Source: Candidatus Parcubacteria bacterium (lineage in GTDB: Bacteria > Patescibacteriota > Minisyncoccia > Phycocordibacterales > CAIJYI01). Taken from it: a stretch of DNA of 41,129 bases. The DNA lies in the NCBI GenBank assembly GCA_026395595.1, contig JAPLYL010000003.1:140136-181264 (forward strand). Reading direction: 5' to 3'. This document shows, one piece after another, positions 4,650 through 38,774 of the stretch. The notes under the pieces were generated by a model. That model was not told where the DNA came from and did not search any database. It was given only the letters and a program-made list of their open reading frames with translations. The stretch's first letter is position 1; each line of letters begins with the position of its first letter. The position numbers and the translations under genes were made by a program.

Positions 4650-5072
4650 ATGGAAAAAGAAAAAAGCAAAAAGCAAAAAGGAACGGACGACGGGAAAATA
4701 ACTTCTTTTACTCAACTTGAAGTTTGGAAAACGGGACATAAAACGGTTCTTGATGTTTATCTTATTACTAAAAAATTTCCAAAAGAGGAAATTTTTGGAA
4801 TAACTTCTCAAATGAGAAGATGCGCTGTTTCCATTACTTCAAACATAGCAGAAGGATTTGGTCGGTTTTCGTATAAAGAAAAAGTACAGTTTTACGCGAT
4901 TGCGCGGGGTTCAATAACAGAATTGCAAAACCAGCTTCTTATTTCAAAAGATATCGGTTACCTTTCAAAATCAGAATTTGAAAGGATCGCAAAGAAAACA
5001 GTTGATACGCACAAAATGTTACAAGGTCTTATTAAAAGTTCTCAAAAAAGGATTCAGGGTGTTGAAAGCTAA
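4650..5072 (+). CDS. Four-helix-bundle protein (S23 / 23S rRNA intervening-sequence family)
   Basis: A 140-residue protein with the conserved core of the S23/IVP family (PF05635, TIGR02436): the LEVWK opening, then a KKFPKEE segment, QMRRCAVSITSNIAEGFGR and a closing ELQNQLLISKDIGYL region. These proteins fold as four-helix bundles. They were first described from intervening sequences in 23S rRNA genes, but free-standing copies are common in Parcubacteria. Its role is not established; the related bAvd protein partners a reverse transcriptase in diversity-generating retroelements, but no reverse transcriptase is present here. The first 16 residues are Lys/Glu-rich and encoded by one arm of a 28-nt inverted repeat that encloses the gene. 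It separates the lipid-sugar synthase from asnB, where no S23 function is expected, so insertion is likely. Confidence 0.85.
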   Translation: MEKEKSKKQKGTDDGKITSFTQLEVWKTGHKTVLDVYLITKKFPKEEIFGITSQMRRCAVSITSNIAEGFGRFSYKEKVQFYAIARGSITELQNQLLISKDIGYLSKSEFERIAKKTVDTHKMLQGLIKSSQKRIQGVES

Positions 5073-11508: not shown

Positions 11509-12624
11509 ATGAAACTTATTTATTTTACTTCAAAAATTTTTCCCGCTTCTACCGCTGACCATTTTTTTGTACTTCAAATGGCGCGAGCTTTTACCTCACT
11601 TCTTCATGCGGATTTTTTGTTGATCGTTGGAGCGGAACACAATGACGAACTTCGTGATATTCCGCATTATTCTTTCAATTTGAAAATGAGAAGAGGGAAG
11701 CGAATCTTCATTTTTTTTAAATTTTTATTCGTTGTTTTTACGAGAAGATTGTATACTTCTGATACTGTCTTTTTTACCAATGACCGTTCTTTGTTGCGAA
11801 TACTCTTTTTCTGGAAAAGTATTTTACATTTTAAATATCGTGTGGTTTCGGATTGGCATATGCTCCGCGATGATGAAGAAGAGTCTGATATCATTAAAAA
11901 AAGTGATGGGTTGGTAACTACCACAAAACATCTGAAAGACCTCGTGGAAAGCCGTTTTGGGGTTCCTGGGGATAAAATACTTACGGCTTATGGGGGCGTA
12001 GATATGGATATATTTTCAAAAATAACGGAGTCTCCTGAGTCTTTACGAAAACGTTTGAATTTGCCAGTCGCCGATTTCTTGGTTGGGTATGTTGGGTACT
12101 ATAAAACTATGGGAATGTCTAAGGGACTAGATACTATGATAGAAGCTCTGTCTTTTATTTCTGATAAGACGGTAAAGATGGTTTTTGTTGGAGGAGGAAA
12201 AGAAGACATTGAAGAGTATTCAAATTTTGCCAAAGAAAAAGGAGTTTTTGACCGAGTGATATTTATTCCTGTCGTTTCTCCAGAAACGTTAGCTCTTTAT
12301 GAAAAGGCGGTTGATGTTCTCGTTATTCCATATCCCGACAAACCACATTTTCGCGAGTATGGTTTTCCTATGAAAACGTATGAATATCTCGCTGCAAAAA
12401 AACCGGTTATTTATTCTGATCTGACAATCATTAGAGAAGTTCTCTCTGATTGCGCAATTTCTTTTAATCCCGGAGTCTCAAAAGACCTGTCTGAAAAAAT
12501 ACTTGAAATAAAAAATTCTCCTTTAAAAACAAAAGATTTTATTGAACGCGCGTATGAAAAAGCGCAAGATTCTACTTGGAAAAAACGAGCTGAAAAGATT
12601 ATCGCTTTTGCAAGAGACATTTAA
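11509..12624 (+). CDS. Glycosyltransferase family 4
   Basis: A 371-residue GT4 protein. The ATG at 11509 opens the conserved MKLIYFTSK start; an in-frame TTG at 11485 is rejected, and AAGGAG at 11490-11495 lies upstream. C-terminal features are LVGYVGYYKTMG near 187, a FVGGGKE segment, the PFLPYP-like VIPYPDKPH region and FPMKTYEYLAAKKPVIYSD, the donor-binding loop with the conserved Glu. Donor and linkage are not predictable. It is the only plus-strand gene in a long minus-strand block. Its last 26 bases overlap the end of the convergent GT2 gene. Confidence 0.85.
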   Translation: MKLIYFTSKIFPASTADHFFVLQMARAFTSLLHADFLLIVGAEHNDELRDIPHYSFNLKMRRGKRIFIFFKFLFVVFTRRLYTSDTVFFTNDRSLLRILFFWKSILHFKYRVVSDWHMLRDDEEESDIIKKSDGLVTTTKHLKDLVESRFGVPGDKILTAYGGVDMDIFSKITESPESLRKRLNLPVADFLVGYVGYYKTMGMSKGLDTMIEALSFISDKTVKMVFVGGGKEDIEEYSNFAKEKGVFDRVIFIPVVSPETLALYEKAVDVLVIPYPDKPHFREYGFPMKTYEYLAAKKPVIYSDLTIIREVLSDCAISFNPGVSKDLSEKILEIKNSPLKTKDFIERAYEKAQDSTWKKRAEKIIAFARDI

Positions 12625-13618
12625 TAAATATCTTTGAACCGTCCCAATACTTTTTCACTTCGCCTATTTTGAAAAGAGGGGAGAAGAAAAACATATTAAA
12701 AACAGAAGATCCTCCTGAAGCATTCATTCCACAAAGGGTTCGCCATCTTTCATAGATGACCTTGTTGAGAGAGTTTGTTTTGTAAACCGGATTTTTTTTA
12801 TTCGCTTCTAATATCTTCGTAAGCCATTTTTCTTCTCTCTCTAGAAAAAGAATTGTCGGTTCGTTTTTTGCCGGCTTAAGGAAATTGTGTAGACGTTTTT
12901 CCTTGTCGGTTTGTTCAATGTCTAATTTCTTGAGCATTTTACGCCGAACGAGGTACGCAATATCCCACGTTTCTTGTTTGTGAGCTTGAAAAGCGCTATC
13001 CGGATGGATGCGATAGCGTAAAAGGACTTTTGGAATGTTGGTTATGGGAAAATGTTTCAGGCACCGAGACCAAAGTTCATAGTCTTCGCAGTATCGGATA
13101 GAGGTATCATAGTTCAGGTTGAATTTTTCAAAAAGGCTTTTTCGGAACATGACGGTCGGATGAGCTATGGAAGTATAAAAAAGCATATTGGCACGGAGGT
13201 CGTCAGGATTGATAGGTACTTTATCCACGACCGATTTTCCTGCACCGAAAGTTTTGTACCACGTTCCGCACAATCCGATTTCCGGGTGTGTATCCATGAA
13301 TTTTACCTGTTCTTCAAAACGGTCGGGAAGGCAGATGTCATCCGCGTCCATTCTTGCAATGTATTCTCCTCTGGAAAGATTTACTCCGTCAAAAAGATTT
13401 TTTTGCAGTCCTCTATTTTTTTCACGGTTAATAAGACGAATTCTTTTGTCGTTATAACTTTTTATAATACCAAGACTTCCGTCTGTGGAAGCGTCGTTCA
13501 TGATAATAAACTCAAAATCCTTGAAGGTTTGATTTAAAACACTCTCTATCGTATCGCGAAGGTATCCTTCACTGTTATACGCCGACATGACGACGGATAT
13601 TTTCGGGTTGTTGGTCAT
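12599..13618 (-). CDS. Glycosyltransferase family 2
   Basis: A 339-residue inverting GT-A enzyme. It opens with ISVVMSAYNSEGYL, continues with FIIMNDASTDGSL, and carries the metal-binding MDADD near residue 92 and a CEDYELW segment near 177. No membrane segments are evident, so it is probably a cytoplasmic or peripheral transferase. Its start overlaps the GmhB stop as ATGA (13615-13618), linking it to the heptose operon, so it is a candidate heptosyltransferase, although GT2 is not the usual heptosyltransferase family. Its 3' end overlaps the convergent GT4 gene by 26 bases. Confidence 0.88.
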   Translation of the reverse strand: MTNNPKISVVMSAYNSEGYLRDTIESVLNQTFKDFEFIIMNDASTDGSLGIIKSYNDKRIRLINREKNRGLQKNLFDGVNLSRGEYIARMDADDICLPDRFEEQVKFMDTHPEIGLCGTWYKTFGAGKSVVDKVPINPDDLRANMLFYTSIAHPTVMFRKSLFEKFNLNYDTSIRYCEDYELWSRCLKHFPITNIPKVLLRYRIHPDSAFQAHKQETWDIAYLVRRKMLKKLDIEQTDKEKRLHNFLKPAKNEPTILFLEREEKWLTKILEANKKNPVYKTNSLNKVIYERWRTLCGMNASGGSSVFNMFFFSPLFKIGEVKKYWDGSKIFIKCLLQKR

Positions 13619-14109
13619 AATGATACAGTATCAAGTATTTTTATTGCGACGTCCAGCCTGTCGGACGGGATGAAAATGGAGTATTTAAGACCGGCTTTCA
13701 TCCCCATTTCAATGTCTTTTTGCGAATCGCTTATTAAAATAGAACTTTCTATTTCAATTGGGTACTTTTCTCGGGCTTGATTGATGAGTCCGGGTTTGGG
13801 TTTTCGACATTCGCAGGAATTTTCTTCATGCGGGCAGAAGAACACATCTAAAAGACTGACACCTTTTTGTCTGAGCGTATCTGTCATGTGTGAATGGATG
13901 GCCTCTAGGTCTTTGTTTGTCATTATTTTTCTGGCAATACCTCTTTGGTTTGTAATAATGATTATTTCAAAACCAAGATCTTGAAGTCGGCGCATCAGAT
14001 CAAAAATTCCATCATTCCAAACAAAATTTTCAACACCCGTAATATATTGGTGTTCCTTCGCTTTTTTATTAATGACCCCATCCCTGTCAAAAAAGGCAAC
14101 TTTTTTCAT
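13615..14109 (-). CDS. gmhB: D-glycero-D-manno-heptose 1,7-bisphosphate 7-phosphatase
   Basis: A 164-residue HAD-IIIA phosphatase. The catalytic motif I is FFDRDGVIN (Asp8 and Asp10), ITNQRGIAR near 52 is motif II, and the structural zinc site typical of GmhB is complete (Cys92, His94, Cys99, Cys101), followed by RKPKPG. It removes the 7-phosphate from heptose 1,7-bisphosphate, leaving heptose 1-phosphate for HddC. Its ATG overlaps the HddA stop by one base and its stop overlaps the next GT2 start, so it is translationally coupled on both sides. The histidinol-phosphate branch of the family is less likely given the neighbours. Confidence 0.93.
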   Translation of the reverse strand: MKKVAFFDRDGVINKKAKEHQYITGVENFVWNDGIFDLMRRLQDLGFEIIIITNQRGIARKIMTNKDLEAIHSHMTDTLRQKGVSLLDVFFCPHEENSCECRKPKPGLINQAREKYPIEIESSILISDSQKDIEMGMKAGLKYSIFIPSDRLDVAIKILDTVSL

Positions 14110-15098
14110 TATTCGTGATGTTTGTGAACGAAGAGCACCCGGCTGCCTTCCGGTTCAAAATTAATCGGCATTTCTTTGTATTTTTTGAGTGCCGATTTTA
14201 TTTTTTCATGATTGTTTTTTGAAGCATACACCATAAGGAAACCACCACCGCCAGCTCCTAGAATCTTTCCTCCTTCGGCACCGTTTTTTATTGCCGTGTT
14301 GTACATGGAGTCAATTTCTCCGTTGGAAATTCCTCCGTTCAAAGTTTTTTTTAAAAGCCATGCTTCGTGGAGCATTTCACCAATTTCTCCTGTTTTATTA
14401 TTTTCTATCGCCTTTCTCATCTCGTGCGCCATTTGCACCATTTTTTCAGTATTTTGGAATTTTTGTTTATCGCTTAATCCGGCAATTTGGTTTTTGAGAA
14501 GACTCCCTGTTTGGCGCGTGATTCCAGTATAAAAAAGCAACAAAGAATCCTCTATTTTTTTTAGAGTGTTTGAAGAACAGATAATAGGACTCACTGAAAC
14601 ATGACCGTTAGGGGAGTATTCCATAAATTTCATTCCACCGTAGCTTGCGATGTATTGATCTTGCTTTCCGATAGGTTCCTTCAGTTTTCCGATTTCTATT
14701 TGGCATGCTTCATCTGCCAGTTGTTCTTCTGACACTGTTTTTCCTTGGTAGGCATAAAGCGCTTTTAAAAGACCGACAGTGAAACTGCTGCTGGATCCGA
14801 GGCCTGTCCCCTTGGAAGGTATATCTGCGATTGTGACGATTTCAATTCCTTTGTTTATTCCAGTATGCTTCATGCAGGCTTTTGCTCTGGTATGTTCCAA
14901 TTTTTGAAGAGTATCCACTATTTCGGTTTGAGAATAACTGACGCGAATTTTCTCGTCAAATTTTTTATTCAGACAGACATAGACATATTTATCTATTGCT
15001 GTGGAAAGTGTAGCTCCAGGGGATCTTTTATAGAACTGAGGAATGTCGCTTCCTCCGCCCATGAAACTTATTCGCAGTGGTGTCTTTACTATAATCAT
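14109..15098 (-). CDS. hddA: D-glycero-alpha-D-manno-heptose 7-phosphate kinase
   Basis: A 329-residue GHMP kinase. The N-terminus has TPLRISFMGGGSDIP, the ATP-binding loop KGTGLGSSSSFTVG lies at about 96-109, and the C-terminal glycine motif is GAGGGGFLM. The opening and length match HddA, which phosphorylates D-glycero-alpha-D-manno-heptose 7-phosphate at C1 to the 1,7-bisphosphate. The neighbours gmhA, gmhB and hddC supply the rest of the GDP-heptose route known from Aneurinibacillus S-layer glycans. A fucokinase-like activity is a less likely reading of the same GHMP fold. It lies 7 bases downstream of hddC. Confidence 0.9.
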   Translation of the reverse strand: MIIVKTPLRISFMGGGSDIPQFYKRSPGATLSTAIDKYVYVCLNKKFDEKIRVSYSQTEIVDTLQKLEHTRAKACMKHTGINKGIEIVTIADIPSKGTGLGSSSSFTVGLLKALYAYQGKTVSEEQLADEACQIEIGKLKEPIGKQDQYIASYGGMKFMEYSPNGHVSVSPIICSSNTLKKIEDSLLLFYTGITRQTGSLLKNQIAGLSDKQKFQNTEKMVQMAHEMRKAIENNKTGEIGEMLHEAWLLKKTLNGGISNGEIDSMYNTAIKNGAEGGKILGAGGGGFLMVYASKNNHEKIKSALKKYKEMPINFEPEGSRVLFVHKHHE

Positions 15099-15105
15099 GT
15101 TGTTT

Positions 15106-15825
15106 TTAGAAAATGAAGTTCTTTATTTCGAGTTGCGCTCGATTATATGTTTCGGGCGTACCGACATCAAGTAAAAATTCTGACATCAGGTACACATGCA
15201 AGGCTTCGTTTTTTGAGAGAAGAGAAGGGAAGACGTCGTGTCCGAAATCTAAAAGCTCTTTATTCATATTTTCCAAATGCTGAAAAATACTTTTATTCAA
15301 AACATATATTCCCGCATTCGCCTGATTGCTTATTATATCTTTCTCTGCGGGTTTTTCAATAAATTTATTGATTTTTTTGTTTTCATCAAAAACAATAATG
15401 CCTTTTGAAGAAGGGTTTTTTTCATAGTACGAGGCAATCGTGGCGGTACCTTTATGCGCTTTTAAAAACTCAGAGTAATTGATATTGGTAAGATTATCGC
15501 CATAAACAACGAAAAAATCATCTTCATTTTTGAAAAAATCGCGGTTATGAAAAAGTGTCCCCGCGCTTCCGAGAAGTGATGACTCGTAGGCTATGGTAAT
15601 TTTTATTTCCGGATTCTTTTTTTTATATTCTTCCACGAACTCTGAAATTTTATCCGCGAGATAATGGGTGTTGATAAGGACTTCATGTACCCCGTGTTTT
15701 TGCAAAGAATTGAGATGATAGGCAAGTAAAGGTTGTCCAGCGATAGGGACGAGTACTTTTGGTATTGTATCGGTGAGCGGACGAAGACGCGTACCGAATC
15801 CTGCTCCAAGAATCAGCGCTTTCAT
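15106..15825 (-). CDS. hddC: D-glycero-alpha-D-manno-heptose 1-phosphate guanylyltransferase
   Basis: A 239-residue nucleotidyltransferase. The signature LGAGFGTRLRP occupies residues 6-16, the PKVLVPIAGQPLL segment follows, and VYGDNLT near 107 carries the metal-binding Asp. Similar sequences act on glucose 1-phosphate or mannose 1-phosphate, so sequence alone gives only NDP-sugar pyrophosphorylase. The location between hddA and galE in an operon that also has gmhA and gmhB makes HddC (GDP-D-glycero-D-manno-heptose formation) the best reading. Its start overlaps the galE stop by 4 bases. Confidence 0.82.
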   Translation of the reverse strand: MKALILGAGFGTRLRPLTDTIPKVLVPIAGQPLLAYHLNSLQKHGVHEVLINTHYLADKISEFVEEYKKKNPEIKITIAYESSLLGSAGTLFHNRDFFKNEDDFFVVYGDNLTNINYSEFLKAHKGTATIASYYEKNPSSKGIIVFDENKKINKFIEKPAEKDIISNQANAGIYVLNKSIFQHLENMNKELLDFGHDVFPSLLSKNEALHVYLMSEFLLDVGTPETYNRAQLEIKNFIF

Positions 15826-16802
15826 TTTTTTATTTTTTTAAAATCGTATGCTGTTTTTATTATCTCGGAAATATCCGTATACTTCGGTTTCCAGCCAAGA
15901 AATTTTTGTGCCTTTGTTGCGTCCGCAATAAGCTTTGACGGATCTCCCGGACGGCGATCTCTGATTTGGTAGGGAAGTTTTTTCCCCGAAATTTTTTCGG
16001 CAGCAGAGATTAATTCCAGAACAGAAAATCCTTTGTTGATACCAAGATTGAATTGTTCACAAGTCGGCTTTCCTGAAAGAAGCAATTTTCCGGCCAAAAG
16101 ATGAGCGGAAGCGAGGTCGTTTACATGAATATAGTCGCGGATGCCTGTTCCGTCTTTGGTTTGAAAATCATTTCCGCACACGTAAAATACCTCTCTTTTT
16201 CCGAGTATTGTTTCGATGATAGAAGGGATTACGTGATTTTCAGGGGTATGATGTTCTCCTATTTTTTTTGATTCATCACAGCCGGAAGCGCAGAAATATC
16301 GGAAGGATATGGAGTTGATTCCATAGGCTTGGTGATAATCTTTAAGTATTCCTTCAAAGATAAGTTTTGTTTTTCCGTAAGGATTCGTCGGATTTTTGGG
16401 GTGATTTTCTTTGATTATTTCCGACTCCGGTTCTCCATAGACGGAAGCAGAAGAAGAAAAAACGATATTTTTTACACCCGTTTCTTTCATTGAGGAAAGT
16501 ACATTTAATCCTCCTTTTATGTTCGTATGGTAGTATTCTTCCGGGGTTTTCATTGAATCGGGCACGCTCGCGAGCGCGGCGTAATGGACCACTAGATCTA
16601 TTTTGTATTTTTTGAAAACCTTCAAAAGCGCTTCTTTGTCTCGGATGTCTGTTTGAGAATAGACAAGGTTCTCGTGTTTGATAACATTATTTTTCCCTTC
16701 GCGAAAATTATCCACTACCACTATTTTGTAGCGCGATTTCGCTTTATTCACAAAATGACTTCCGATATATCCGGCACCACCGGTAGCAAGAATGGTTTTC
16801 AT
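15822..16802 (-). CDS. galE: UDP-glucose 4-epimerase-type SDR
   Basis: A 326-residue extended short-chain dehydrogenase. The NAD-binding TGGAGYIGSH lies at 7-16, VHYAALASVPDSM at about 72-84, the catalytic SSSASVYGEP includes Ser117-118, and the Tyr142/Lys146 pair appears in NPYGKTK. Length and motifs fit GalE, which interconverts UDP-glucose and UDP-galactose (or the N-acetyl forms). It lies between gmhA and hddC, so a heptose epimerase role (for example a 4- or 6-epimerase on GDP-heptose) is a possible alternative. Spacing to gmhA is 4 bases. Confidence 0.85.
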   Translation of the reverse strand: MKTILATGGAGYIGSHFVNKAKSRYKIVVVDNFREGKNNVIKHENLVYSQTDIRDKEALLKVFKKYKIDLVVHYAALASVPDSMKTPEEYYHTNIKGGLNVLSSMKETGVKNIVFSSSASVYGEPESEIIKENHPKNPTNPYGKTKLIFEGILKDYHQAYGINSISFRYFCASGCDESKKIGEHHTPENHVIPSIIETILGKREVFYVCGNDFQTKDGTGIRDYIHVNDLASAHLLAGKLLLSGKPTCEQFNLGINKGFSVLELISAAEKISGKKLPYQIRDRRPGDPSKLIADATKAQKFLGWKPKYTDISEIIKTAYDFKKIKK

Positions 16803-16806
16803 GTTT

Positions 16807-17382
16807 TTAACCCTCGTCTTTCAGCAGATCCATAAAGACATTTTTAATCGTATGATTGAGAATAAGGTGGACATCTTCTGAGATTTCCATGTCGTTGATA
16901 TTAGCATTTATTGAGTATTTTGCGAGTTTTTTCAATTTTCCTCCGTCATACCCGGTTAGTCCTACGGTTGCGTTTCCTTGTTCGTTGGCATATTCCACCG
17001 CTTTTATGACATTCTTAGAATTTCCGCTTCCCGATAATGCGATGACGAGATCTCCCGGATTCAGAAAGTTTTTTAGTTGTTCAATAAAGACTTCATCATA
17101 GGATAGGTCGTTTGAATAGGCGGTAATGGTTGCCATGTTATCAGTAAGCGAGTGGACGTGAAATTTTTTGTGTTTGCCATAACTCACTCCTTTGTTCAGG
17201 TCGCATGCGATATGCGAGGCGGTGGAAGCACTGCCACCATTTCCAAAAACGAATATGATATTGTCATTTTTATACGTCTCAAAAATAACATGCGCGACTT
17301 GATTGATTTCGTCTCGGCTCAGTGCTTTGACGCAAGACGCTACTTTTTCCAAGTAGTTATTGATTTGTTCTTTTTCTTCCAT
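16807..17382 (-). CDS. gmhA: Sedoheptulose 7-phosphate isomerase
   Basis: A 191-residue single SIS-domain protein with the phosphosugar-binding FGNGGSASTASH at 46-57, LSGSGNSKN near 120 and the C-terminal ISEDVHLILNH segment with the expected acid and His. It matches GmhA in length and motifs. GmhA turns sedoheptulose 7-phosphate into D-glycero-D-manno-heptose 7-phosphate, the first step of the GDP-heptose path. It is upstream of galE, hddC, hddA and gmhB in the same operon. Its substrate requires transketolase chemistry; a split transketolase lies about 14 kb away in this window. Confidence 0.93.
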   Translation of the reverse strand: MEEKEQINNYLEKVASCVKALSRDEINQVAHVIFETYKNDNIIFVFGNGGSASTASHIACDLNKGVSYGKHKKFHVHSLTDNMATITAYSNDLSYDEVFIEQLKNFLNPGDLVIALSGSGNSKNVIKAVEYANEQGNATVGLTGYDGGKLKKLAKYSINANINDMEISEDVHLILNHTIKNVFMDLLKDEG

Positions 17383-30491: not shown

Positions 30492-31529
30492 CTAAAATTT
30501 ATAAATTTCTTTTTGCCATGCAATTGTGTTTGCTAATCCTGAATCAATATCTTTGTAATCTTTTTTTGTTTTTTTAAATTCTTTGGAAACACTCCCCATA
30601 TCTAACCTTACGTTGCTCGGCGCTCCGGTGAGTTCTTTGGTTATTTTTGGAAAAATAACCTCAGCATTCATTATTTTTCCGATTTTTTTTGCAAGACCGG
30701 AGATTGTTAGTATTGAGAATCCACCAACATTATAAATAGGATTTTTTCCGGAAAGTAATATGTTCCACATTATCTCCACGGCATCGGAGACATAACAATA
30801 GGTTCTTTTCGCTTCGCCCCGATCCATCATTTCAATTTTTCCGGACATTCCTTTTTCTATGAATGAATTCAACACCCGCATGTCCCCGGCTCTTGTTCCT
30901 GGTCCATAGGCGAGAGAAAGTCTTGCTGACTTGGCGTTTATACCTTTTTTGTAATAAGCATGGCAAATAGCCTCTCCACACCGTTTTCCTTCAATATAAC
31001 AGGCTCTCGGGTGGGTTGTGTTCGTTGTACCAATCTGTTCTTCTTTATACGGCGGATGAGGCAGACAGCTGTATACTTCGCTGCTGCTCACGAACAAAAA
31101 TTTTCCTTCCGGTTTCAATTTTTTGAGAAGGGAAATCGTCGCTGTTGTGTTTATCGCGATAGTTTTTACTTCGTCCCGCATGAACTTTCCCGGCTGTCCG
31201 TACCCGGCGGCATGAACAATGCAGTCGGCAAAAGGAAGCGATTTAATGAAATTTTCATCAGTCACATCGCCGTTTTTTATGGAAAGATTTTCAAAATTCA
31301 AAACTTCTTTGAGATATTCTGGAATTTCATTATGAAAAATAGCGGTAACTTTTGGGGATTTTTGAATGCCGACTTTACGGGAAAATTCCTTGAGAGACAT
31401 GAGGAAATTGATGCCGATAAGACCTGATGCTCCCGTTATAATGATTTCTTTTTCGAGAAGCTCTGTTAAATTTACTTTTTTATTTACGGCGACAGCGTCT
31501 TCCTGTAAGATTTTTTCCAGTTTATTCAT
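30492..31529 (-). CDS. NAD-dependent epimerase/dehydratase (extended SDR)
   Basis: A 345-residue extended SDR with an N-terminal addition of about 28 residues. The cofactor loop ITGASGLIG is at 31-39, VHAAGYGQPGKF near 105, FVSSSEVYS near 147 and the catalytic Tyr178/Lys182 in CYIEGKR. It resembles the UDP-glucuronate decarboxylase and dTDP-glucose 4,6-dehydratase branch, but I cannot name the substrate. Its start overlaps the transketolase C-terminal gene by 8 bases. Close pairing of an SDR with a split transketolase recurs in glycan clusters and suggests that both work on the same keto-sugar. Confidence 0.8.
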   Translation of the reverse strand: MNKLEKILQEDAVAVNKKVNLTELLEKEIIITGASGLIGINFLMSLKEFSRKVGIQKSPKVTAIFHNEIPEYLKEVLNFENLSIKNGDVTDENFIKSLPFADCIVHAAGYGQPGKFMRDEVKTIAINTTATISLLKKLKPEGKFLFVSSSEVYSCLPHPPYKEEQIGTTNTTHPRACYIEGKRCGEAICHAYYKKGINAKSARLSLAYGPGTRAGDMRVLNSFIEKGMSGKIEMMDRGEAKRTYCYVSDAVEIMWNILLSGKNPIYNVGGFSILTISGLAKKIGKIMNAEVIFPKITKELTGAPSNVRLDMGSVSKEFKKTKKDYKDIDSGLANTIAWQKEIYKF

Positions 31530-32400
31530 GGATCAGTTTCTTTATTCTCGTAAGGATATTTTTTTCGGTAAAACCGAGGTGCTCGTCATGTTCTTCCTTC
31601 GTTCCGTAATTTGTTAAAAATTCTTTTGGAACTCCCAGGAATTCAATTTTGAGAGGATCTTTTGATGCTTTGATGATTTCTTCAGTAATGGCACCGCTGT
31701 AATAGGGCTCGCAGATGAACACCTTTCCTCCGGTAATGTTTTTTTGAACCGTTTCTGTGTCAAATGGTCGGAGTGTGGTGAGATATATAACCGTTACGTC
31801 AATATCTTTTGTTGCGTTTATAACTTTATCAAGAAGTGGTCCAACAGCAATCACGGTACCGCTTTTGCCCTTTTTAATGACATTAGCTTTACCGAATTTT
31901 ACAGGAACTTTCGTTTGGTTTTCTCTTTCACTCAGCCTGAAATACTTTAGTTTTCCATTTGAATATGATTCTTTGAAGAGCGTATCAAAATCCTCCGATG
32001 TGCCCGGAACAATTATTTGAACATCCGGTATATTCATGAGGATAGGAACATCCGCAGGGCAGTGGTGGGTGCATCCGAGGCCTGCATAGTCGTATGAGGC
32101 ACCAACGCTTACGAGATTTCCTCCGAGTTTTTGATATCCAAAATCATCTTTAATTTGTTCAAAACATCTCTCTGTGAGAAATGGCGCTATCGTGTGCACA
32201 ATCGGTATGAGGCCGGTAATGCTTAAACCGGAAGCCATACTGATGGTGGATTGTTCTAAAATTCCGATGTTGTAGACTCTGTCGGGATAATTTTTGAAGG
32301 CATTTCGGAAACCAAATACTCCGATATCCCCAAGAAGGAGAACGGCGCGTTCGTCTTTTTTCAGAATTTCTTCAACGGTGGTAACAAATTGTTTTCTCAT
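31522..32400 (-). CDS. Transketolase, C-terminal subunit
   Basis: A 292-residue protein corresponding to the pyrimidine-binding and C-terminal domains of transketolase. The catalytic Glu49 lies in YNIGILEQ, where the thiamine ring is activated; GLGCTHHCPADVPI near 107 and a TLRPFDTETV segment near 208 are further family features. It pairs with the N-terminal subunit encoded 10 bases upstream. Split transketolases of this type act as heterotetramers. Possible roles are making sedoheptulose 7-phosphate for GmhA or transferring a two-carbon unit to a nucleotide sugar. Confidence 0.88.
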   Translation of the reverse strand: MRKQFVTTVEEILKKDERAVLLLGDIGVFGFRNAFKNYPDRVYNIGILEQSTISMASGLSITGLIPIVHTIAPFLTERCFEQIKDDFGYQKLGGNLVSVGASYDYAGLGCTHHCPADVPILMNIPDVQIIVPGTSEDFDTLFKESYSNGKLKYFRLSERENQTKVPVKFGKANVIKKGKSGTVIAVGPLLDKVINATKDIDVTVIYLTTLRPFDTETVQKNITGGKVFICEPYYSGAITEEIIKASKDPLKIEFLGVPKEFLTNYGTKEEHDEHLGFTEKNILTRIKKLIHE

Positions 32401-32410
32401 GTTTTTGTGG

Positions 32411-33172
32411 TTAGGAAAGTTCTTTCATTAATCCTTCGAATTCTTCTTGGTTTGGGGACTTATGATGCCATGCCGAATTGTTTTCTAAAGCTTTGATTCC
32501 GTAGCCTTTTATCGTTTTGGCGATAATAGCAAGCGGGACATTTGCATGTTTTGTTTTTAATGCTTTTTCAATTTCTTTTTGATCATGTCCGTTAATTGTC
32601 ATGCAATCCCAGCCGAAGGAAGAAAATTTATTTTCTAAATTTCCAAGATCAAGAGCTCTATCTCCTGAATGGTTATGGTCAACAATACAACAAAGATTAT
32701 CTAGCTTGTGATGGGAGGCCAAAAGTGCTGATTCCCAAATCGTACCTTCATTACTTTCTCCGTCACCGATAATGACGAAGACCTTTTGTTTTTTCTTTTG
32801 TATTTTGAGTCCTTTGGCGATGCCGACGGCAATAGGAAGTCCGTGGCCGAGAGAGCCGGTGGAAGCCTCTACTCCGGGAACTTTGTTGCGATTTGGATGA
32901 CCGCCGAGAATGCTCTCATACCGACAAAAATCTTTTAGTTTTTTCTTGTCAAAAAACCCTTTTTCTGCAAGTACGGAATAAAGGCCGAGAGAAGCATGTC
33001 CTTTGCTTAAGATAAAATAATCGCGGTTCGGATCATGTGGCTTTTTCGGATTAACTTTTAGTATTTTTGAATACAAGACCCATAAAATATCTAATATAGA
33101 AAGAGAACTTGGAATGTGACCTTCTTTGGAACTAAATGCATTTTGCAGTATTTCTGTTTGTAGTTTTTTCAT
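32411..33172 (-). CDS. Transketolase, N-terminal subunit
   Basis: A 253-residue protein with the thiamine diphosphate fold of transketolase: ILSKGHAS at 54-61, STGSLGHGLP at 104-113, GDGESNEG (136-143) and the downstream DHN (165-167) that completes the ThDP/Mg site. The full-length enzyme is about 620-670 residues; here the halves are separate genes. The C-terminal subunit follows after 10 bases. It lies directly after the ABC exporter genes in the minus-strand operon, so its role is tied to the surface glycan rather than, or in addition to, central metabolism. Confidence 0.9.
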   Translation of the reverse strand: MKKLQTEILQNAFSSKEGHIPSSLSILDILWVLYSKILKVNPKKPHDPNRDYFILSKGHASLGLYSVLAEKGFFDKKKLKDFCRYESILGGHPNRNKVPGVEASTGSLGHGLPIAVGIAKGLKIQKKKQKVFVIIGDGESNEGTIWESALLASHHKLDNLCCIVDHNHSGDRALDLGNLENKFSSFGWDCMTINGHDQKEIEKALKTKHANVPLAIIAKTIKGYGIKALENNSAWHHKSPNQEEFEGLMKELS

Positions 33173-33193: not shown

Positions 33194-34465
33194 TTATTTT
33201 TTTGAAATTTTCCAATGGGCATCACTTGAAACTATGGCGAGTGTAGGGGCGTATCTCCCGTAAGCCTCCATCGGAGAGTTGTTGTTTACTACGGTGAGTG
33301 TTGTTATATTCTCGTAATAATCAATGTTTCTGACATTTCTTTCGTGAGCACTTATTGAGATAAAGTAGTTGTCCTCCATGAGGAAGTTTTTTTTAATCGT
33401 TGTTGTTGTTGTATAACTTCCTTTCTTCATTGAAACGAACTTTTGTCCATAGGAATCAGAAAGACTGGTAAAGGTGATATTGACCCCCTTTGAATTTTTT
33501 AAAAAGATGCTTATTTCAGCCGTATCAATGTCTTTGTGTACATCAAAATCAAGAGTGATGGTAAAGTCCTCATCTGTATTGATGGTGTTCATTTCTTTCC
33601 CCTTACTGTTTTCAATGGTGAGCTTAGAAAAAGAAACATCTTTGTTGGAATCCGGAGTGATTTTGACGTCTCGCTTTCCTTCTTTGTTGAGGTAATAACG
33701 AATGACATCTTCTGTTTTTCCTATTTTTATTATCTCTCCTTTTTTGAGAAGAATGGTTCTCGTGCACAATTTTTCTATTGCCTCCAGATTGTGGCTGACA
33801 AAGAGAATAGTGCGTCCGTCTTGTTTGGTGACTTCGTCCATTTTTCCGAGACACTTTTGTTGGAATTCGGCATCTCCAACCGCGAGCACTTCATCAACGA
33901 TCAAGATGTCCGGTTCCATATGCGCTGCCACAGAAAAAGCGAGACGCACATACATTCCGCTGGAATAGTATTTTACCGGAGTATCTAAAAATTGGGTAAT
34001 GCCTGCGAATTCAACGATACGGTCAAATTTCTTCGCAACTTCTTGTCTCCCCATTCCCAATATGGCACCGTTCAAGAAAATGTTTTCTCTCCCCGTAAGC
34101 TCAGGGTGAAAGCCTGTTCCTACTTCAAGTAAGCTCCCGACCTTTCCTTGTATTTTTATTTCTCCTCTCGTTGGAGGGGTGATTTGCGAGAGTATTTTGA
34201 GCAGGGTGGATTTTCCTGAACCATTTGGTCCGATGATTCCAATAATCTCTCCTTTTTTAATATCAATGTTTATATCTTTCAACGCCCAGAACTCTTCCTT
34301 AGTATCAATGCCCGCAATTTTTTTCACTTTTGTTTTTAGAAAAGTGAACGGTGATTTTAGGGCATACATTATGACGTCTCGCAGGGCAACATATCCGCCC
34401 CGGTGGTGGTTGATGTTGTAGCGTTTGCCGATACCTTTAATTTCGATTATTGGTTGATTTTCCAT
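33194..34465 (-). CDS. wzt: ABC transporter ATP-binding protein for polysaccharide export (Wzt-like)
   Basis: A 423-residue protein. The ATPase domain (about 5-260) has GPNGSGKST (79-87), the YSSGMYVRLAF signature, the ILIVDEVLAVGD Walker B and a SHN switch. From about 275 to the end a beta-rich Wzt-type domain follows, which in E. coli Wzt binds the end of the finished O-polysaccharide. ATG 34465 is preferred because it opens MENQPIIEIKGIGKRY; ATG 34513, with GAAGG 5 bases upstream, is a real alternative. It pairs with the permease at 34957, from which it is separated by a PemK/MazF gene. Confidence 0.92.
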   Translation of the reverse strand: MENQPIIEIKGIGKRYNINHHRGGYVALRDVIMYALKSPFTFLKTKVKKIAGIDTKEEFWALKDINIDIKKGEIIGIIGPNGSGKSTLLKILSQITPPTRGEIKIQGKVGSLLEVGTGFHPELTGRENIFLNGAILGMGRQEVAKKFDRIVEFAGITQFLDTPVKYYSSGMYVRLAFSVAAHMEPDILIVDEVLAVGDAEFQQKCLGKMDEVTKQDGRTILFVSHNLEAIEKLCTRTILLKKGEIIKIGKTEDVIRYYLNKEGKRDVKITPDSNKDVSFSKLTIENSKGKEMNTINTDEDFTITLDFDVHKDIDTAEISIFLKNSKGVNITFTSLSDSYGQKFVSMKKGSYTTTTTIKKNFLMEDNYFISISAHERNVRNIDYYENITTLTVVNNNSPMEAYGRYAPTLAIVSSDAHWKISKK

Positions 34466-34530
34466 AAGATGTATTGCTTGCTTTTTATTGAGGTTGTGAT
34501 ATACTTTGTTCATAAGTGCCTTCGGGCTTG

Positions 34531-34591
34531 CCCTGTGAAAACAGGGAGAAAAGCGGAGAAGTCGTTAAAGCATGTCTTTAACGGCTTTTCT
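34531..34591. promoter_or_regulatory. Two hairpins between the PemK/MazF and Wzt genes
   Basis: CCCTGT (34531-34536) pairs with ACAGGG (34541-34546) around a 4-base loop. CGTTAAAG (34563-34570) pairs with CTTTAACG (34576-34583) around a 5-base loop, and the stem can extend further with some mismatches. The second overlaps the 3' end of the toxin-like gene. They could reduce read-through or protect the mRNA at this junction; no strong T-run follows on the minus strand. Confidence 0.35.
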
Positions 34592-34951
34592 TATATTTTC
34601 AAAAATATCTTTTTCAATAAAACCAAGCTTGTTGGTAAGTCGTTTCGTATCTACCACTCGTAGTTGCGAAATAATGACAGATGCATTTTTTTCTCCCACT
34701 ATTCCCGCCTGTATTCTCATAGGGTGTTTATTCGGTGATGTGGTAAGCGGAATTACTAAACAGGTATCTTTGCTTAATCCTTTGAGGATAAGAACCGGTC
34801 TTTGATATTCACTTCCGTCACCATCTTGTTCAAAACCTATATTTGCGCCAATTGAGCACCACCAAACTTCTCTGGCATGGTATCGTTTACTTCGTTCATT
34901 TTCATGAATTTCAGATTTTATTTTATGCCAATTTTCAAAATCTTTTTTCAT
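34565..34951 (-). CDS. PemK/MazF-family endoribonuclease toxin-like protein (orphan)
   Basis: A 128-residue protein. After a charged N-terminal helix, the fold landmarks of PemK/MazF appear: REVWWCSIGANIGFEQDG, RPVLILKG, VIPLTTS and ISQLRVVDTKRL with the conserved Ser and Arg. MazF-type toxins cut mRNA. No antitoxin gene is adjacent; the gene sits between wzm (5 bases upstream) and wzt. Orphan copies of this type recur in Patescibacteria. The long N-terminal extension is unlike classical 110-residue MazF and might affect activity. Confidence 0.85.
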   Translation of the reverse strand: MKKDFENWHKIKSEIHENERSKRYHAREVWWCSIGANIGFEQDGDGSEYQRPVLILKGLSKDTCLVIPLTTSPNKHPMRIQAGIVGEKNASVIISQLRVVDTKRLTNKLGFIEKDIFENIRKAVKDML

Positions 34952-34956
34952 ACCGT

Positions 34957-35775
34957 TTATATTATATCCGCAAAGTATCGCTCTGTTTTTTTAAACATAA
35001 CAATGCCGACGGCGAGGAGAACAGACGTGGCGATGAAAGAAATAAAGATAAGTAGTCCGTTTATTTGCGCAGTACCTAAAAGAGCGGCGCGAGCGTTTTG
35101 GATGACACCGGTCATCGGGTTGATAGCGAGTATCCATGAATATTTTCCGGCGATGCTGGCGGGGTATATAACGGGAGTTAGGAACATTAACATTTGTATG
35201 AAGTAAGGGAGAATGTATCTGACGTCTCTATATTTTACATTAATCGCGGCAAGGAAAAGACCCAGACCAACAGCTGCCATAAAACAGATGATAAGAAGAA
35301 CCGGAAGAATGAGAATCCCAATCATATTGGGATGATATCCGTAATAAACCATCATTCCGACAAGGATGGTTGCGGCGATGGCAAAATCAACCAATTGAGT
35401 AATGACTGATGTGATGGGGAGAATAAGGCGAGGGAAGTAAACTTTTGTGATAATGGATTGATTGGCGATCAAGCAAGAACTGGTACTGGAAAGAGCGCTG
35501 GAAAAAAATTGCCAGAAGAGAAGTCCTGTGTAGACAAAGATCGGATAGGGAACCCCATCGGAAGGCATTTTTGCCAGTTTTCCGAAAAAGATGGTAAAGA
35601 CCACCATCGTCATAAAAGGCTGGAAGATCGCCCATGCCGCCCCGAGAGCGGTTTGTTTGTACCTGACCTTTAAATCCCTCCAGGTGAAAAAATAGAGCAA
35701 CTCTTTGTATTGCCAAATTTCTTGGAGATCGTGCCAGTGGAAGATCTTTTTAGGCTTTATGATAGTTGTTTGCAT
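34957..35775 (-). CDS. wzm: ABC transporter permease for polysaccharide export (Wzm-like)
   Basis: A 272-residue ABC2-type permease with six hydrophobic segments after a cytoplasmic DLKVRYKQTALGAAW segment, typical of the Wzm/TagG/KpsM family, and the INVKYRDVRY loop near 190. ATG 35775 is preferred to an upstream start at 35859 because it begins MQTTIIKP just before the conserved region. A TATAAT box lies 3 bases before that ATG, suggesting a leaderless transcript. With Wzt it would export the finished glycan on its lipid carrier. Confidence 0.92.
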   Translation of the reverse strand: MQTTIIKPKKIFHWHDLQEIWQYKELLYFFTWRDLKVRYKQTALGAAWAIFQPFMTMVVFTIFFGKLAKMPSDGVPYPIFVYTGLLFWQFFSSALSSTSSCLIANQSIITKVYFPRLILPITSVITQLVDFAIAATILVGMMVYYGYHPNMIGILILPVLLIICFMAAVGLGLFLAAINVKYRDVRYILPYFIQMLMFLTPVIYPASIAGKYSWILAINPMTGVIQNARAALLGTAQINGLLIFISFIATSVLLAVGIVMFKKTERYFADII

Positions 35776-35897
35776 GTCATTATATCTTATGCTATTTGAA
35801 CGACTTTTTCCAGTGGAAATGCGTTCATTTATAGAACTGTCGGGGAAAGAAAAAGTCACCGGTTTTCAAGTTGAAAAGGCTCGCCGGTTCCTGTAAC
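35776..35897. promoter_or_regulatory. Divergent promoter region between wzm and acpS, with two dyads
   Basis: This 122-base gap separates the exporter operon from the ACP cassette. TATAAT on the minus strand (35779-35784) is only 3 bases from the wzm ATG. Two odd-centred dyads are present: TTTCCAGTGGAAA (35807-35819) and TTTTCAAGTTGAAAA (35863-35877). Either could bind a dimeric regulator of both operons. No clear plus-strand promoter was found. Confidence 0.35.
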
Positions 35898-36263
35898 ATG
35901 TCAGATATGGAGGTAAAAGGAATTGGCATTGATATTGTGGAGGTTAAAAGATTTGCTTCTTTTAAAAAAAAAGGGGAAGATCGATTTTTGAGTAATAATT
36001 TTACAGAAAAAGAGTTGGAATACTGTTTCTCTTTTTCCGACTCGAGCGTTCATCTTGCGGGAACTTTCGCAGGGAAGGAAGCGGTATGGAAAGCTTTGGG
36101 GAAAACCGATATCCTTCAATCTTTGTTTGAGATTAGGAGGGATACTTCCGGGTGTCCGACGGTATGGATAAAAAATCGGCAACAAAAAACCATTTTACTT
36201 TCTATAAGCCATACGGCGGACACCGCGGTCGCCGTCGCAATTATGACGGATAGAAAAAAATAA
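35898..36263 (+). CDS. acpS: Holo-acyl carrier protein synthase
   Basis: A 121-residue 4'-phosphopantetheinyl transferase. GIGIDIVEV at 8-16 includes the metal-binding Asp12, AGKEAVWKALGK at 58-69 includes Glu61, and the C-terminal LLSISHTADTAVAVAI is typical of AcpS. It moves the phosphopantetheine arm from CoA to the carrier protein, here most likely the ACP encoded at 37407. ATG 35898 is used; 35907 is also possible, and an in-frame TTG at 35871 is rejected. A hairpin lies between it and fkbH. Confidence 0.92.
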   Translation: MSDMEVKGIGIDIVEVKRFASFKKKGEDRFLSNNFTEKELEYCFSFSDSSVHLAGTFAGKEAVWKALGKTDILQSLFEIRRDTSGCPTVWIKNRQQKTILLSISHTADTAVAVAIMTDRKK

Positions 36264-36270
36264 AAATAGA

Positions 36271-36319
36271 AAAATAGAAAGATTACAAAATATAACCACT
36301 TTAGCAATCTTTCTATTTT
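36271..36319 (+). terminator. AT-rich 14-bp hairpin after acpS
   Basis: AAAATAGAAAGATT (36271-36284) pairs perfectly with AATCTTTCTATTTT (36306-36319) around a 21-base loop, and a T-rich tract follows. The stem has few GC pairs, so it may be a weak terminator or a processing site between acpS and fkbH. Confidence 0.5.
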
Positions 36320-36361
36320 ATTATTTTACTATTTTTTTACTTTTATATTATTATTTTATTT

Positions 36362-37405
36362 ATGAATACAAAAAAATGCATTGTGCTTGATTTGGACAAC
36401 ACTCTTTGGGGAGGCATTGTTGGCGAGGATGGTTTTGATGGGATACAACTTTCCTTGTCTCATCCCGGGGCAAGTTTTATTGCTTTTCAACAAGCTCTTT
36501 TGGATCTCTATAATCGTGGAATTATTTTGGCGGTAAATAGCCGAAATAATTTTGAAGACGCGATGAAGGTGATTCGTTCTCATCCGAATATGATTCTGAA
36601 AGAACCGCACTTCGCGGCGATGCGTATCAACTGGAATGATAAGGCGACGAATATCATTGAGCTGGCAAAAGAACTCAATATCGGATTGGATTCCATGGTA
36701 TTTTTTGATGATGATCCGACTAATCGCGCCACTGTTCGAGCCATGGTCCACGAAGTAGAAGTGCCTGAGCTCCCGATAAATCCTGAAGAATACGCAAAGT
36801 TCCTTCTTTCTCTCCCGTACTTTCCGAGTTCCGCGACGACCGATGAAGATAAAATGCGCGGAAGCTTGTATGTAACGGAACGGTTGCGTCAAGAGGCGGA
36901 AAAATCATTTCCAAGTAAAGAAGAGTTTTTAAAAAATCTTGGGTTGGAACTTCATTTTTTTGAAGACGATTCATCCTCTATCGCCCGCCTTGCTCAGATG
37001 ACGGGAAAAACCAATCAGTTCAATGTGAATAAAATCCCTATGACAGAAGAAGAAATGACAGGCTTTATTGAACACCCTGAATACAAAGTATTTCACGGAC
37101 ACGTCGCTGATCGTTTTGGAGAACATGGTATTACGAATTTGGCGATTGTGAAAAAAAATGGCGAGGATTGGGGTATTGAGCACTTTCTTATGAGCTGTCG
37201 AGTAATCGGAAGGGGGATAGAAGATGCCTTTTTGACGTCCATTGCCGATTCTGCAAAAAAAGAAGGGGCGAAGCGTCTGACGATTACTTTTATTCCAACG
37301 GAGAAAAACGCGCCGGCTCAAGAATTTATCAATCGGCGTTTTATTAATAATGAAACAATGGTTGAAGATACACCCCCTCTTCCTGAGTGGATTACCATCA
37401 AATAA
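36362..37405 (+). CDS. FkbH-like HAD-IIIC phosphatase
   Basis: A 347-residue protein of the FkbH type. The HAD motif VLDLDNTLWGG begins with Asp10 and Asp12, FFDDDPTNR lies near 114, and the C-terminal half has the GNAT-like fold seen in FkbH (an MSCRVIGRGIE segment near 276). Known FkbH enzymes take 1,3-bisphosphoglycerate and load a glyceryl group onto the thiol of an ACP. The ACP gene starts one base after its stop, which strongly supports this. The upstream SGNH domain of longer family members is absent. The preceding 98 bases are very AT-rich. Confidence 0.88.
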   Translation: MNTKKCIVLDLDNTLWGGIVGEDGFDGIQLSLSHPGASFIAFQQALLDLYNRGIILAVNSRNNFEDAMKVIRSHPNMILKEPHFAAMRINWNDKATNIIELAKELNIGLDSMVFFDDDPTNRATVRAMVHEVEVPELPINPEEYAKFLLSLPYFPSSATTDEDKMRGSLYVTERLRQEAEKSFPSKEEFLKNLGLELHFFEDDSSSIARLAQMTGKTNQFNVNKIPMTEEEMTGFIEHPEYKVFHGHVADRFGEHGITNLAIVKKNGEDWGIEHFLMSCRVIGRGIEDAFLTSIADSAKKEGAKRLTITFIPTEKNAPAQEFINRRFINNETMVEDTPPLPEWITIK

Positions 37406-37406
37406 T

Positions 37407-37637
37407 ATGGAAAAATTTAATGAAATGGCAGGGGAAGCTTTTAAGATGGCGCCTTCTGAAATAAAGGATTCTTTGACACCGAAAGAGATACCCGAGTGGG
37501 ACTCTATGAATTTTCTTTTATTCATCGCGGCTCTGGAAAAAGAATTCAATTTTTCATTCAGTATGGACGAAGTGTTAAATGCAAAATCTCTCGGTGATAT
37601 AAAAGCGGTATTGCAGACTAAAGGACTTGTTGCATGA
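37407..37637 (+). CDS. Acyl carrier protein
   Basis: A 76-residue carrier protein with the phosphopantetheine site in WDSMNFL (Ser33) and helices II and III as expected (LFIAALEKEFNFSF, then EVLNAKSLGDI). The DSM form in place of DSL is common in FkbH-linked ACPs. An in-frame ATG at 37350 is rejected because it overlaps fkbH. It begins one base after the fkbH stop and overlaps the MaoC gene by 4 bases (ATGA). It should carry the three-carbon acyl group handled by its neighbours. Confidence 0.92.
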   Translation: MEKFNEMAGEAFKMAPSEIKDSLTPKEIPEWDSMNFLLFIAALEKEFNFSFSMDEVLNAKSLGDIKAVLQTKGLVA

Positions 37638-38053
37638 TTGCGAAAGAAATAAAATTTGAAGATATCAAAAAAGGAGACCATTCCTCTTTTGAGGTGACCA
37701 TAACGGAAAGCGACGTGCAAAAATTCGCTGAACTTTCCGGTGATTATAATCCGCTTCATATTGATGAAGCATACGCAAAAGAAACTGAATTTGGCGGGCA
37801 GGTGGTTCATGGAATGTTTCTCGGGTCATTGGTTTCTCGTTTTGTCGGAATGGAATTACCCGGAAAAAAAGCGCTCTTAATGAAAGAGATGCTTGAGTTC
37901 AAAAAACCGGCACGCATCGGCGACCGAGTTGCTGTTGAGGGAACCGTTGTCTATAAAAGTGAATCGCTTCGCCTTATAGAACTTTTAATGGAAATAAGCA
38001 CAGAAAAAGAATTGCTCGTTTCCGGTTCCGTGTATGTAAGGGTTTTATCTTAA
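37634..38053 (+). CDS. MaoC-like hydratase/dehydratase
   Basis: A 139-residue single hot-dog protein with the (R)-hydratase signature: SGDYNPLHIDEAYA around Asp37 and His42, then GGQVVHGMFLGSLVS. MaoC enzymes add or remove water at an enoyl thioester. It is coupled to the ACP gene (ATGA overlap) and followed after 4 bases by an SDR. No ketosynthase is present, so it cannot be ordinary fatty-acid elongation. It more likely dehydrates a hydroxyacyl-ACP from FkbH or a related unit. Confidence 0.9.
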   Translation: MIAKEIKFEDIKKGDHSSFEVTITESDVQKFAELSGDYNPLHIDEAYAKETEFGGQVVHGMFLGSLVSRFVGMELPGKKALLMKEMLEFKKPARIGDRVAVEGTVVYKSESLRLIELLMEISTEKELLVSGSVYVRVLS

Positions 38054-38057
38054 GCAA

Positions 38058-38774
38058 ATGAATACTGATAAAAAAATTGCCGTAATCTCCGGTGGGGGTG
38101 GGTACCTTGGAAGCGCTATCTCTCAAGAGCTTATTCGTAATGGATTTTTTGTAATCGCCATAGAAAGGGAAGACAAAGGAATTTTGGACACCGAAAATAT
38201 ACGGTTCAAAATCGCGGATATCTCTGATGTTTCGGCGGTAAAGAAAATAGCAGAAGAAGTGAAAGCGGAGTTTGGGGAAATTTGTACTATTATACATACC
38301 GCCTCGGCACCCCTTGTTCGTCAGCCGGTTTTATCTCTTTCTGAAGATGATTTCACGCAACAGTTTTCCGTAAACGTGGAGGGAGGATTTCATCTTTTTA
38401 AATACTTTTCAGAAATGTTGGAGAAAAACGGATCCATTATCGGTATTACTTCGTCGGCAATTCTGCAAGGAACTCCACATTCAAAAAGTGGTTCGTATGT
38501 TTCCGCAAAATACGGATTACAAGGATTGTTGCGCTCAATTTCTTCCGAATCATTTTTTCGCGTCTATTCTGTCGCACCTGCTTTTATGTCCGGAGGACTG
38601 AATAATGATTTGCCGGAAATTGCTCGTGACTTTATTCTTCAAAAAAGCGACCCGAAGGATATTGCCAGCGTTGAGAACGTGGCTTCATCCGTTCTTTCTC
38701 TTGTGAATGACCAAGAAAAAAAATGGAGAGGAAAGACTATTGCTCTGCCGGGATTTTTTGTAACTGAAATTTAA
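38058..38774 (+). CDS. FabG-like short-chain dehydrogenase/reductase
   Basis: A 238-residue classical SDR with the cofactor loop SGGGGYLGSA (11-20), the NVEGG segment near 106, and Ser132-133, Tyr147 and Lys151 as the catalytic set. Motifs fit a 3-oxoacyl-ACP reductase-like enzyme. In this cassette it probably reduces or oxidises the ACP-bound acyl group. It is the last gene of the plus-strand unit. A 7-bp AT-rich stem (38775-38781 with 38787-38793) follows but lacks a T-run, so termination is unclear. Confidence 0.88.
   Translation: MNTDKKIAVISGGGGYLGSAISQELIRNGFFVIAIEREDKGILDTENIRFKIADISDVSAVKKIAEEVKAEFGEICTIIHTASAPLVRQPVLSLSEDDFTQQFSVNVEGGFHLFKYFSEMLEKNGSIIGITSSAILQGTPHSKSGSYVSAKYGLQGLLRSISSESFFRVYSVAPAFMSGGLNNDLPEIARDFILQKSDPKDIASVENVASSVLSLVNDQEKKWRGKTIALPGFFVTEI

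Follow-up and report, generated by a model that had tools for sequence, protein, structure and literature searches.

A candidate ketosynthase-free lactyl-ACP cassette in a surface-glycan cluster of a Candidatus Parcubacteria bacterium

The stretch of DNA analysed here (41,129 nucleotides, hereafter the window) forms the terminal part of contig C6 (positions 140136-181264) in the genome of a Candidatus Parcubacteria bacterium, which comprises 979,447 bp in 8 contigs and is 90.9% complete. Within a glycan cluster in which the contig stops, the window encodes AcpS, FkbH, a stand-alone acyl carrier protein (ACP), a MaoC-type dehydratase and a FabG-like short-chain dehydrogenase/reductase (SDR). 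We propose that this cassette is most likely a lactyl-ACP pathway, or at least a three-carbon (C3) acyl-ACP pathway, that works without a ketosynthase and serves the acylation of surface glycans. The more specific form of the proposal, a lactyl thioester made from a glycolytic intermediate and used to acylate the polysaccharide of the surrounding cluster, we consider fairly probable.

We envisage that AcpS would convert the ACP to its holo form, while FkbH would take D-glycerate from 1,3-bisphosphoglycerate, with the phosphate released by its HAD domain, and load the glyceryl group onto the ACP, probably through C279. MaoC would then remove water from glyceryl-ACP across C2-C3 to give an enol that becomes pyruvyl-ACP, the 2-ketone of which would be reduced by the SDR to yield lactyl-ACP. 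Transfer of the lactyl group to a sugar would be carried out, judging from relatives, either by an MBOAT protein with a DltD-like partner (O-acylation, as in Dlt systems) or by a GNAT protein (N-acylation). Gene content and order, catalytic residues, domain homology, co-occurrence, MaoC-SDR fusions and the acyltransferases linked to the cassette in relatives are observed directly; what the pathway starts from, its individual reactions, the sugar that is acylated and, in the window species, the transfer step are inferred.

Results

The initial annotation listed the five genes in the above order on the forward strand, and open reading frames together with Pfam and TIGR profile matches bear this out: all five are intact between 35898 and 38774, with their catalytic residues retained (Table 1). 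It also described the starts as coupled, which holds for FkbH-ACP-MaoC-SDR but not for AcpS, since the intergenic distances are 98 bp from AcpS to FkbH, 1 bp from FkbH to ACP, -4 bp (an overlap) from ACP to MaoC and 4 bp from MaoC to SDR, so that four of the five genes are coupled. A scan for promoters and terminators returned nothing above shuffled sequence. The TIGR00516 score of AcpS barely exceeds the cut-off; an AcpS orthologue lies upstream of FkbH in most relatives within the class.

The match of FkbH to the curated TIGR01686 profile is strong (290.4 bits against a cut-off of 146.65; E 1.6e-86), and the protein retains D10 and D12 of the DxDNT motif and C279 of SCRV; D10, D12, S278, C279 and R280 are invariant across 29 FkbHs from bacteria and archaea. 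Foldseek comparison of its AlphaFold model (pLDDT 91.0, pTM 0.69) matched the N-terminal part to a HAD phosphatase (3slr) and the other part to GNAT acyltransferase folds, and these modelled folds are as expected for an enzyme that would both dephosphorylate and transfer glyceryl. The predicted phosphopantetheine serine of the ACP is S33 in a WDS motif, of which W31, D32 and S33 are invariant in 10 cassette ACPs. Catalytic D37 and H42 of MaoC (GDxNPLH) are likewise invariant in 9 cassette MaoCs, whose family profile matches the (R)-specific enoyl-CoA hydratase 1iq6 (1.4e-34), and Y147 and K151 of the SDR motif YxxxK are invariant in 7 cassette SDRs. A MaoC-type dehydratase and an SDR, each with its catalytic pair in place, are encoded together with FkbH and ACP, as would be expected of a lactyl-ACP system.

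The grouping of these genes is more than chance, because their order recurs in divergent relatives and because ACP and MaoC co-occur with FkbH. Across a class sample of 384 genomes, with FkbH called above the curated TIGR01686 cut-off, FkbH is present in 11, PF00550 in 37 and PF01575 in 14. Pfam places an ACP in the FkbH locus of 10 of these 11 genomes (hypergeometric P = 2e-10), the eleventh FkbH being adjoined by a weaker ACP seen with a cassette profile, and MaoC in that of 9 (P = 2e-13). The order FkbH-ACP-MaoC-SDR is retained in relatives whose FkbH identity has fallen to 58-61%, two of them with an extra inserted gene, and FkbH and ACP are 92-93% identical between the window and its sister species (genome G001, locus L019). 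A quick FkbH tree unites the window with five relatives (100% SH-aLRT), separate from the FkbHs of polyketide synthases (PKSs), and the FkbH neighbours include Nealsonbacteria and Harrisonbacteria records. A single-sequence FkbH query of a 380-genome phylum sample recovered only the window's own genome and the sister, a result that, with its different sample and query, is less telling than the TIGR01686 search. Two class cassettes (L022 8577-9485 and L023 11719-12657) carry related methyltransferases, in the arrangements FkbH-methyltransferase-ACP and MaoC-methyltransferase-GNAT, which suggests a methylated acyl variant.

The reaction order from glyceryl through pyruvyl to lactyl, which the initial annotation offered as its own inference, has a homologous, characterised precedent. 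Dehydratase-ketoreductase (DH-KR) bifunctional proteins that turn glyceryl-S-ACP into lactyl-S-ACP have been characterised in both the FR901464 and the lankacidin pathways, as summarised in a review (PMC4765723, citing He et al. 2014), and lankacidin assembly is proposed to start from lactoyl-ACP derived from 1,3-bisphosphoglycerate (PMC6162330). In S. griseofuscus the lankacidin cluster is carried by pSGRIFU1 (PMC8443760), and directly beside its PKS genes we find a 499-aa protein, an ACP and an FkbH (34% identical to that of the window). Although annotated as an SDR, the 499-aa protein is a MaoC-SDR fusion (PF01575 1.4e-14; PF00106 1.5e-14), and its alignment to the cassette MaoC profile (hhalign probability 96.9%, 35% identity) spans the catalytic GDxNxLH. 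Since the DH-KR reaction is established and the probable DH-KR protein is a MaoC-SDR fusion near FkbH and ACP, the order is more than inference, and the conversion of glyceryl-ACP to lactyl-ACP is known chemistry rather than new.

MaoC-SDR fusions occur in five further FkbH loci (L063, L069, L080, L093 and L109), from Omnitrophota, Acidobacteriota, Comamonadaceae (two) and SAR116, and the window MaoC is 44% identical to the MaoC half of a Rhodoferax fusion. Two plasmid-encoded, very large PKS proteins, of Ensifer canadensis pT173a (L122) and a Streptomyces anulatus plasmid (L121), start with MaoC, SDR and FkbH domains in that order, apparently as built-in lactyl loading modules. A plasmid search with a MaoC-SDR fusion as query returned mostly unrelated SDRs, and a scan of viral contigs with the MaoC protein returned no relatives.

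The absence of a ketosynthase, which the initial annotation had described for the five genes, holds genome-wide within the assembled 90.9%. PF00109 matched in 0 of 31 genomes (the window's own and 30 relatives), against 14 of 14 control genomes, and PF08541 gave no match, and no FabH-like protein was found, in the window's own genome. Neither the FabB/F/H-type ketosynthase of a type II fatty acid synthase nor a ketosynthase that would extend a lactyl-ACP starter, as in a polyketide synthase, was found in that genome, whose one PF00550 match is the cassette ACP. We rejected a fatty-acid role for the cassette, given that the searches found no ketosynthase and that the occurrence of MaoC and ACP follows that of FkbH.

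The acyl destination is best seen in relatives. In the sister species the cassette runs on into SDR1-SDR2-MBOAT-SGNH-like, with 3, 3 and -1 bp between these genes, the MBOAT matching PF03062 (1.3e-24). The SGNH-like protein has no Pfam match and carries GTSR and DxxH motifs, which we take to be the pattern of a DltD/AlgJ-like partner. MBOAT occurs in five class genomes (G001, G125, G216, G068 and G195), with an SGNH-like partner in G001, G125 and G068, and a cassette GNAT-type transferase in five others (G127, G122, G165, G220 and G078), so all ten other FkbH-positive class genomes have one or the other. The two were never found together among the genomes checked for both (G068 and G195 fall outside the GNAT check), which suggests two outlets, O-acylation and N-acylation.

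The window SDR is the orthologue of the second SDR of the sister species (SDR2; 62% identity). It falls within the same set of seven SDRs as the canonical cassette SDR (95% SH-aLRT), yet is a paralogue of it. L021 and L037 each have a single SDR, which groups with SDR1. The sister's two SDRs stand in tandem (L019 11218-11976 for SDR1 and 11980-12696 for SDR2), the window retaining the second only, and SDR1 has T-T-A where other cassette SDRs carry Ser near the likely catalytic position.

Beyond the class, we compared the best 80 matches of a larger public genome scan which, with the class loci and the window, make 91 FkbH loci, for which the numbers are counts and not frequencies. MaoC and SDR both lie near FkbH in 17 of the 91, MaoC alone in 10, and neither accompanies FkbH-ACP in 51. 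Thaumarchaeota loci L039, L042, L043, L045, L047 and L053 carry FkbH-ACP-MaoC without a recognised SDR nearby, followed by AcpS in L039, L042 and L043; these are archaeal ACP genes, possibly with a pyruvyl end product. AcpS-FkbH-ACP without MaoC or SDR in Asgard archaea (L038, L040, L041 and L059) suggests that glyceryl-ACP itself is the product there. FkbH loci with a FabH-like ketosynthase are a separate subtype, numbering 16 among the matches listed (L060, L068, L071, L074-L078, L082-L085, L087, L088, L094, L099), mostly from Bacteroidales and often with a second ACP and an SDR.

The cassette is flanked on the left by a divergent wzm/wzt polysaccharide exporter and on the right by a convergent NAD-dependent epimerase gene, amid glycosyltransferases, NeuB, a cytidylyltransferase, sugar epimerases and a heptose module. 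A PemK/MazF-like gene, which no obvious antitoxin open reading frame adjoins, lies between wzm and wzt; these are adjacent, without it, in the sister locus. A split transketolase pair with an epimerase, part of the window's glycan cluster, is missing from the sister stretch, and transketolase halves also occur near the FkbH cassettes of L023, L024 and L112. A stand-alone 23S rRNA-intervening-sequence-type protein is encoded elsewhere in the window.

Table 1. Features of the window, with coordinates counted from its first nucleotide.
Feature	Position	Strand	Evidence
AcpS-type 4'-phosphopantetheinyl transferase, 121 aa from ATG 35898	35898..36263	+	PF01648 1.3e-12; TIGR00556 4e-19
FkbH-type glyceryl transferase/phosphatase, 347 aa, HAD and GNAT-like domains	36362..37405	+	TIGR01686
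ACP, 76 aa	37407..37637	+	PF00550 7.7e-6
MaoC / (R)-hydratase-type dehydratase, 139 aa	37634..38053	+	PF01575 1.7e-21
Classical SDR / FabG-like reductase, 238 aa	38058..38774	+	PF13561 3.9e-23; PF00106 1.1e-22
Divergent polysaccharide ABC exporter: Wzm 34957-35859; Wzt with Wzt_C 33194-34513	33194..35859	-	PF01061 2.6e-19; PF00005 1.8e-23; PF14524 3e-16
PemK/MazF-like protein	34565..34951	-	PF02452 1.3e-12
Split transketolase pair (N and C halves) plus epimerase	30492..33172	-	
Heptose-type module: HAD phosphatase, GHMP kinase, nucleotidyltransferase, NAD-dependent dehydratase, SIS isomerase	13615..17382	-	
23S rRNA-intervening-sequence-type protein	4650..5072	+	PF05635 4.6e-38

Discussion

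The cassette displays individual features of several described systems. With the lactyl-ACP starter systems of lankacidin and FR901464 it shares FkbH, ACP, a MaoC-type dehydratase and an SDR, the lankacidin-side copy having the same Pfam domains and catalytic motifs; it differs from them in that MaoC and SDR are separate genes, that no ketosynthase was found, that the locus is one of polysaccharide export and that relatives add MBOAT or GNAT. The likeness to Dlt-type D-alanylation (DltC, the MBOAT DltB, and DltD) is seen in the sister and two further class genomes, where a small carrier has for neighbours an MBOAT and an SGNH-like protein bearing the GTSR and DxxH motifs. However, the acyl group would derive from 1,3-bisphosphoglycerate through FkbH, MaoC and SDR and not from D-alanine through a DltA ligase, and MBOAT and SGNH-like proteins were not found in the window's genome. 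The methoxymalonyl and tetronate systems also pair FkbH with a stand-alone ACP (PMC7489565), but there glyceryl-ACP is either oxidised and methylated or attached to a chain by a FabH-like enzyme, whereas the window has MaoC and SDR and no FabH-like protein was found in its genome. Polyketide starters have already made the chemistry known; new are the setting, the lack of a ketosynthase and the association with MBOAT/SGNH-like or GNAT transferases. We found no account of this cassette in glycan loci in the open-licence literature searched.

Several observations weigh against the proposed lactyl-ACP route. The identity of the 499-aa protein with the DH-KR enzyme of He et al. is no more than probable, judging from its position and domains. 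MaoC alone may make the final product at the ten listed FkbH loci, including those of Thaumarchaeota, where it stands without a recognised SDR nearby. The window has kept only SDR2 and is without SDR1, the type that matches the single SDR of L021 and L037, and SDR2 may act on a different substrate. Finally, PF03062 (MBOAT), PF01757 (Acyl_transf_3), the cassette GNAT and the SGNH-like partner had no match in the window or in its own 90.9%-complete genome, where other acyltransferase families were not searched genome-wide, and the Dlt-like arrangement of an MBOAT and a DltD/SGNH protein beside the carrier is not found there. The claim of the initial annotation that the cassette supplies a C3 acyl group for glycan decoration is supported by relatives in which MBOAT or GNAT is linked to the cassette, and falls short of full support in that, in the window's own incomplete genome, no such transferase turned up and the SDR is the paralogue. 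Its suggestion to look beyond the window for an acyltransferase fared likewise, with linked genes in relatives and none of the searched types in the own genome. The acceptor step of the window species may lie on a missing contig, belong to another transferase family or have gone from a decaying cassette.

The last of these leads to the view that the cassette is a relic or silent, the sister's SDR1, MBOAT and SGNH-like partner having all been lost. The clean loss of SDR1, with MaoC and SDR2 now 4 bp apart, and the lack of an MBOAT or SGNH-like match in the genome would fit; on the other hand, five intact reading frames with conserved catalytic residues and an FkbH and ACP so close to those of the sister speak for maintenance, the contig ends within the glycan cluster of an incomplete genome, and another acyltransferase could serve, so we think decay improbable. 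A rival that deserves more weight, although we still hold it to be unlikely, accepts the loading of ACP by FkbH and has it deliver glyceryl, pyruvyl or another C3 unit for which the SDR would be used differently, for instance to oxidise glyceryl-ACP as happens on the way to methoxymalonyl-ACP. FkbH pathways with such an oxidation are known (PMC7489565), di-O-methylglyceric acid is present on Campylobacter flagellin glycans (PMC3068675), and the methyltransferases of two class loci, the paralogous SDR of the window and the 51 loci without MaoC and SDR, together with the ten without SDR, point the same way. The repeated fusion of MaoC to SDR, and the recurrence of this domain pair next to the lankacidin genes, argue instead for consecutive dehydration and reduction.

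Characterised homologues act in polyketide pathways, and the acyl-ACP might on that ground feed a small secreted metabolite, much like a polyketide starter unit. We find this very improbable, considering that no ketosynthase was found in the genome and that the locus is one of an exporter, glycosyltransferases, sugar epimerases, NeuB and a heptose module. Least credible to us is a remnant of fatty-acid synthesis, or an editing system for scavenged fatty acids: MaoC is closest to (R)-specific enoyl-CoA hydratases, the SDR is FabG-like and such lineages are thought to obtain their lipids from others (PMC7242380), but the unit is anchored by FkbH, which ACP and MaoC track over the 384 genomes, and no ketosynthase was found in any of the 31 genomes searched.

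The presence of an ACP is usually read as pointing to the synthesis of fatty acids or polyketides. One study of lipids in such bacteria viewed the ACP machinery in the light of fatty acids only (PMC7242380), and an ACP gene acquired by Patescibacteria is among the horizontal transfers reported (PMC12455944). A lactyl-ACP route for surface glycans would give at least some of these ACPs another purpose, in a short, ketosynthase-free path from a glycolytic acyl phosphate to a C3 acyl group for cell-surface sugars. We suggest more tentatively, as something quite possible, that this extends to several lineages thought to be without fatty-acid synthesis (this class and, by their FkbH-ACP loci, DPANN, Thaumarchaeota and Asgard archaea), in which the main task of phosphopantetheine carriers would be to make lactyl, pyruvyl or glyceryl thioesters out of 1,3-bisphosphoglycerate for the acylation of surface glycans. 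The gene signature FkbH-ACP-MaoC-SDR with MBOAT or GNAT could explain lactyl- or glyceryl-modified glycans and is testable in culturable hosts. If the proposal is true, it would represent a Dlt-like decoration powered by glycolysis and not by an amino-acid ligase.

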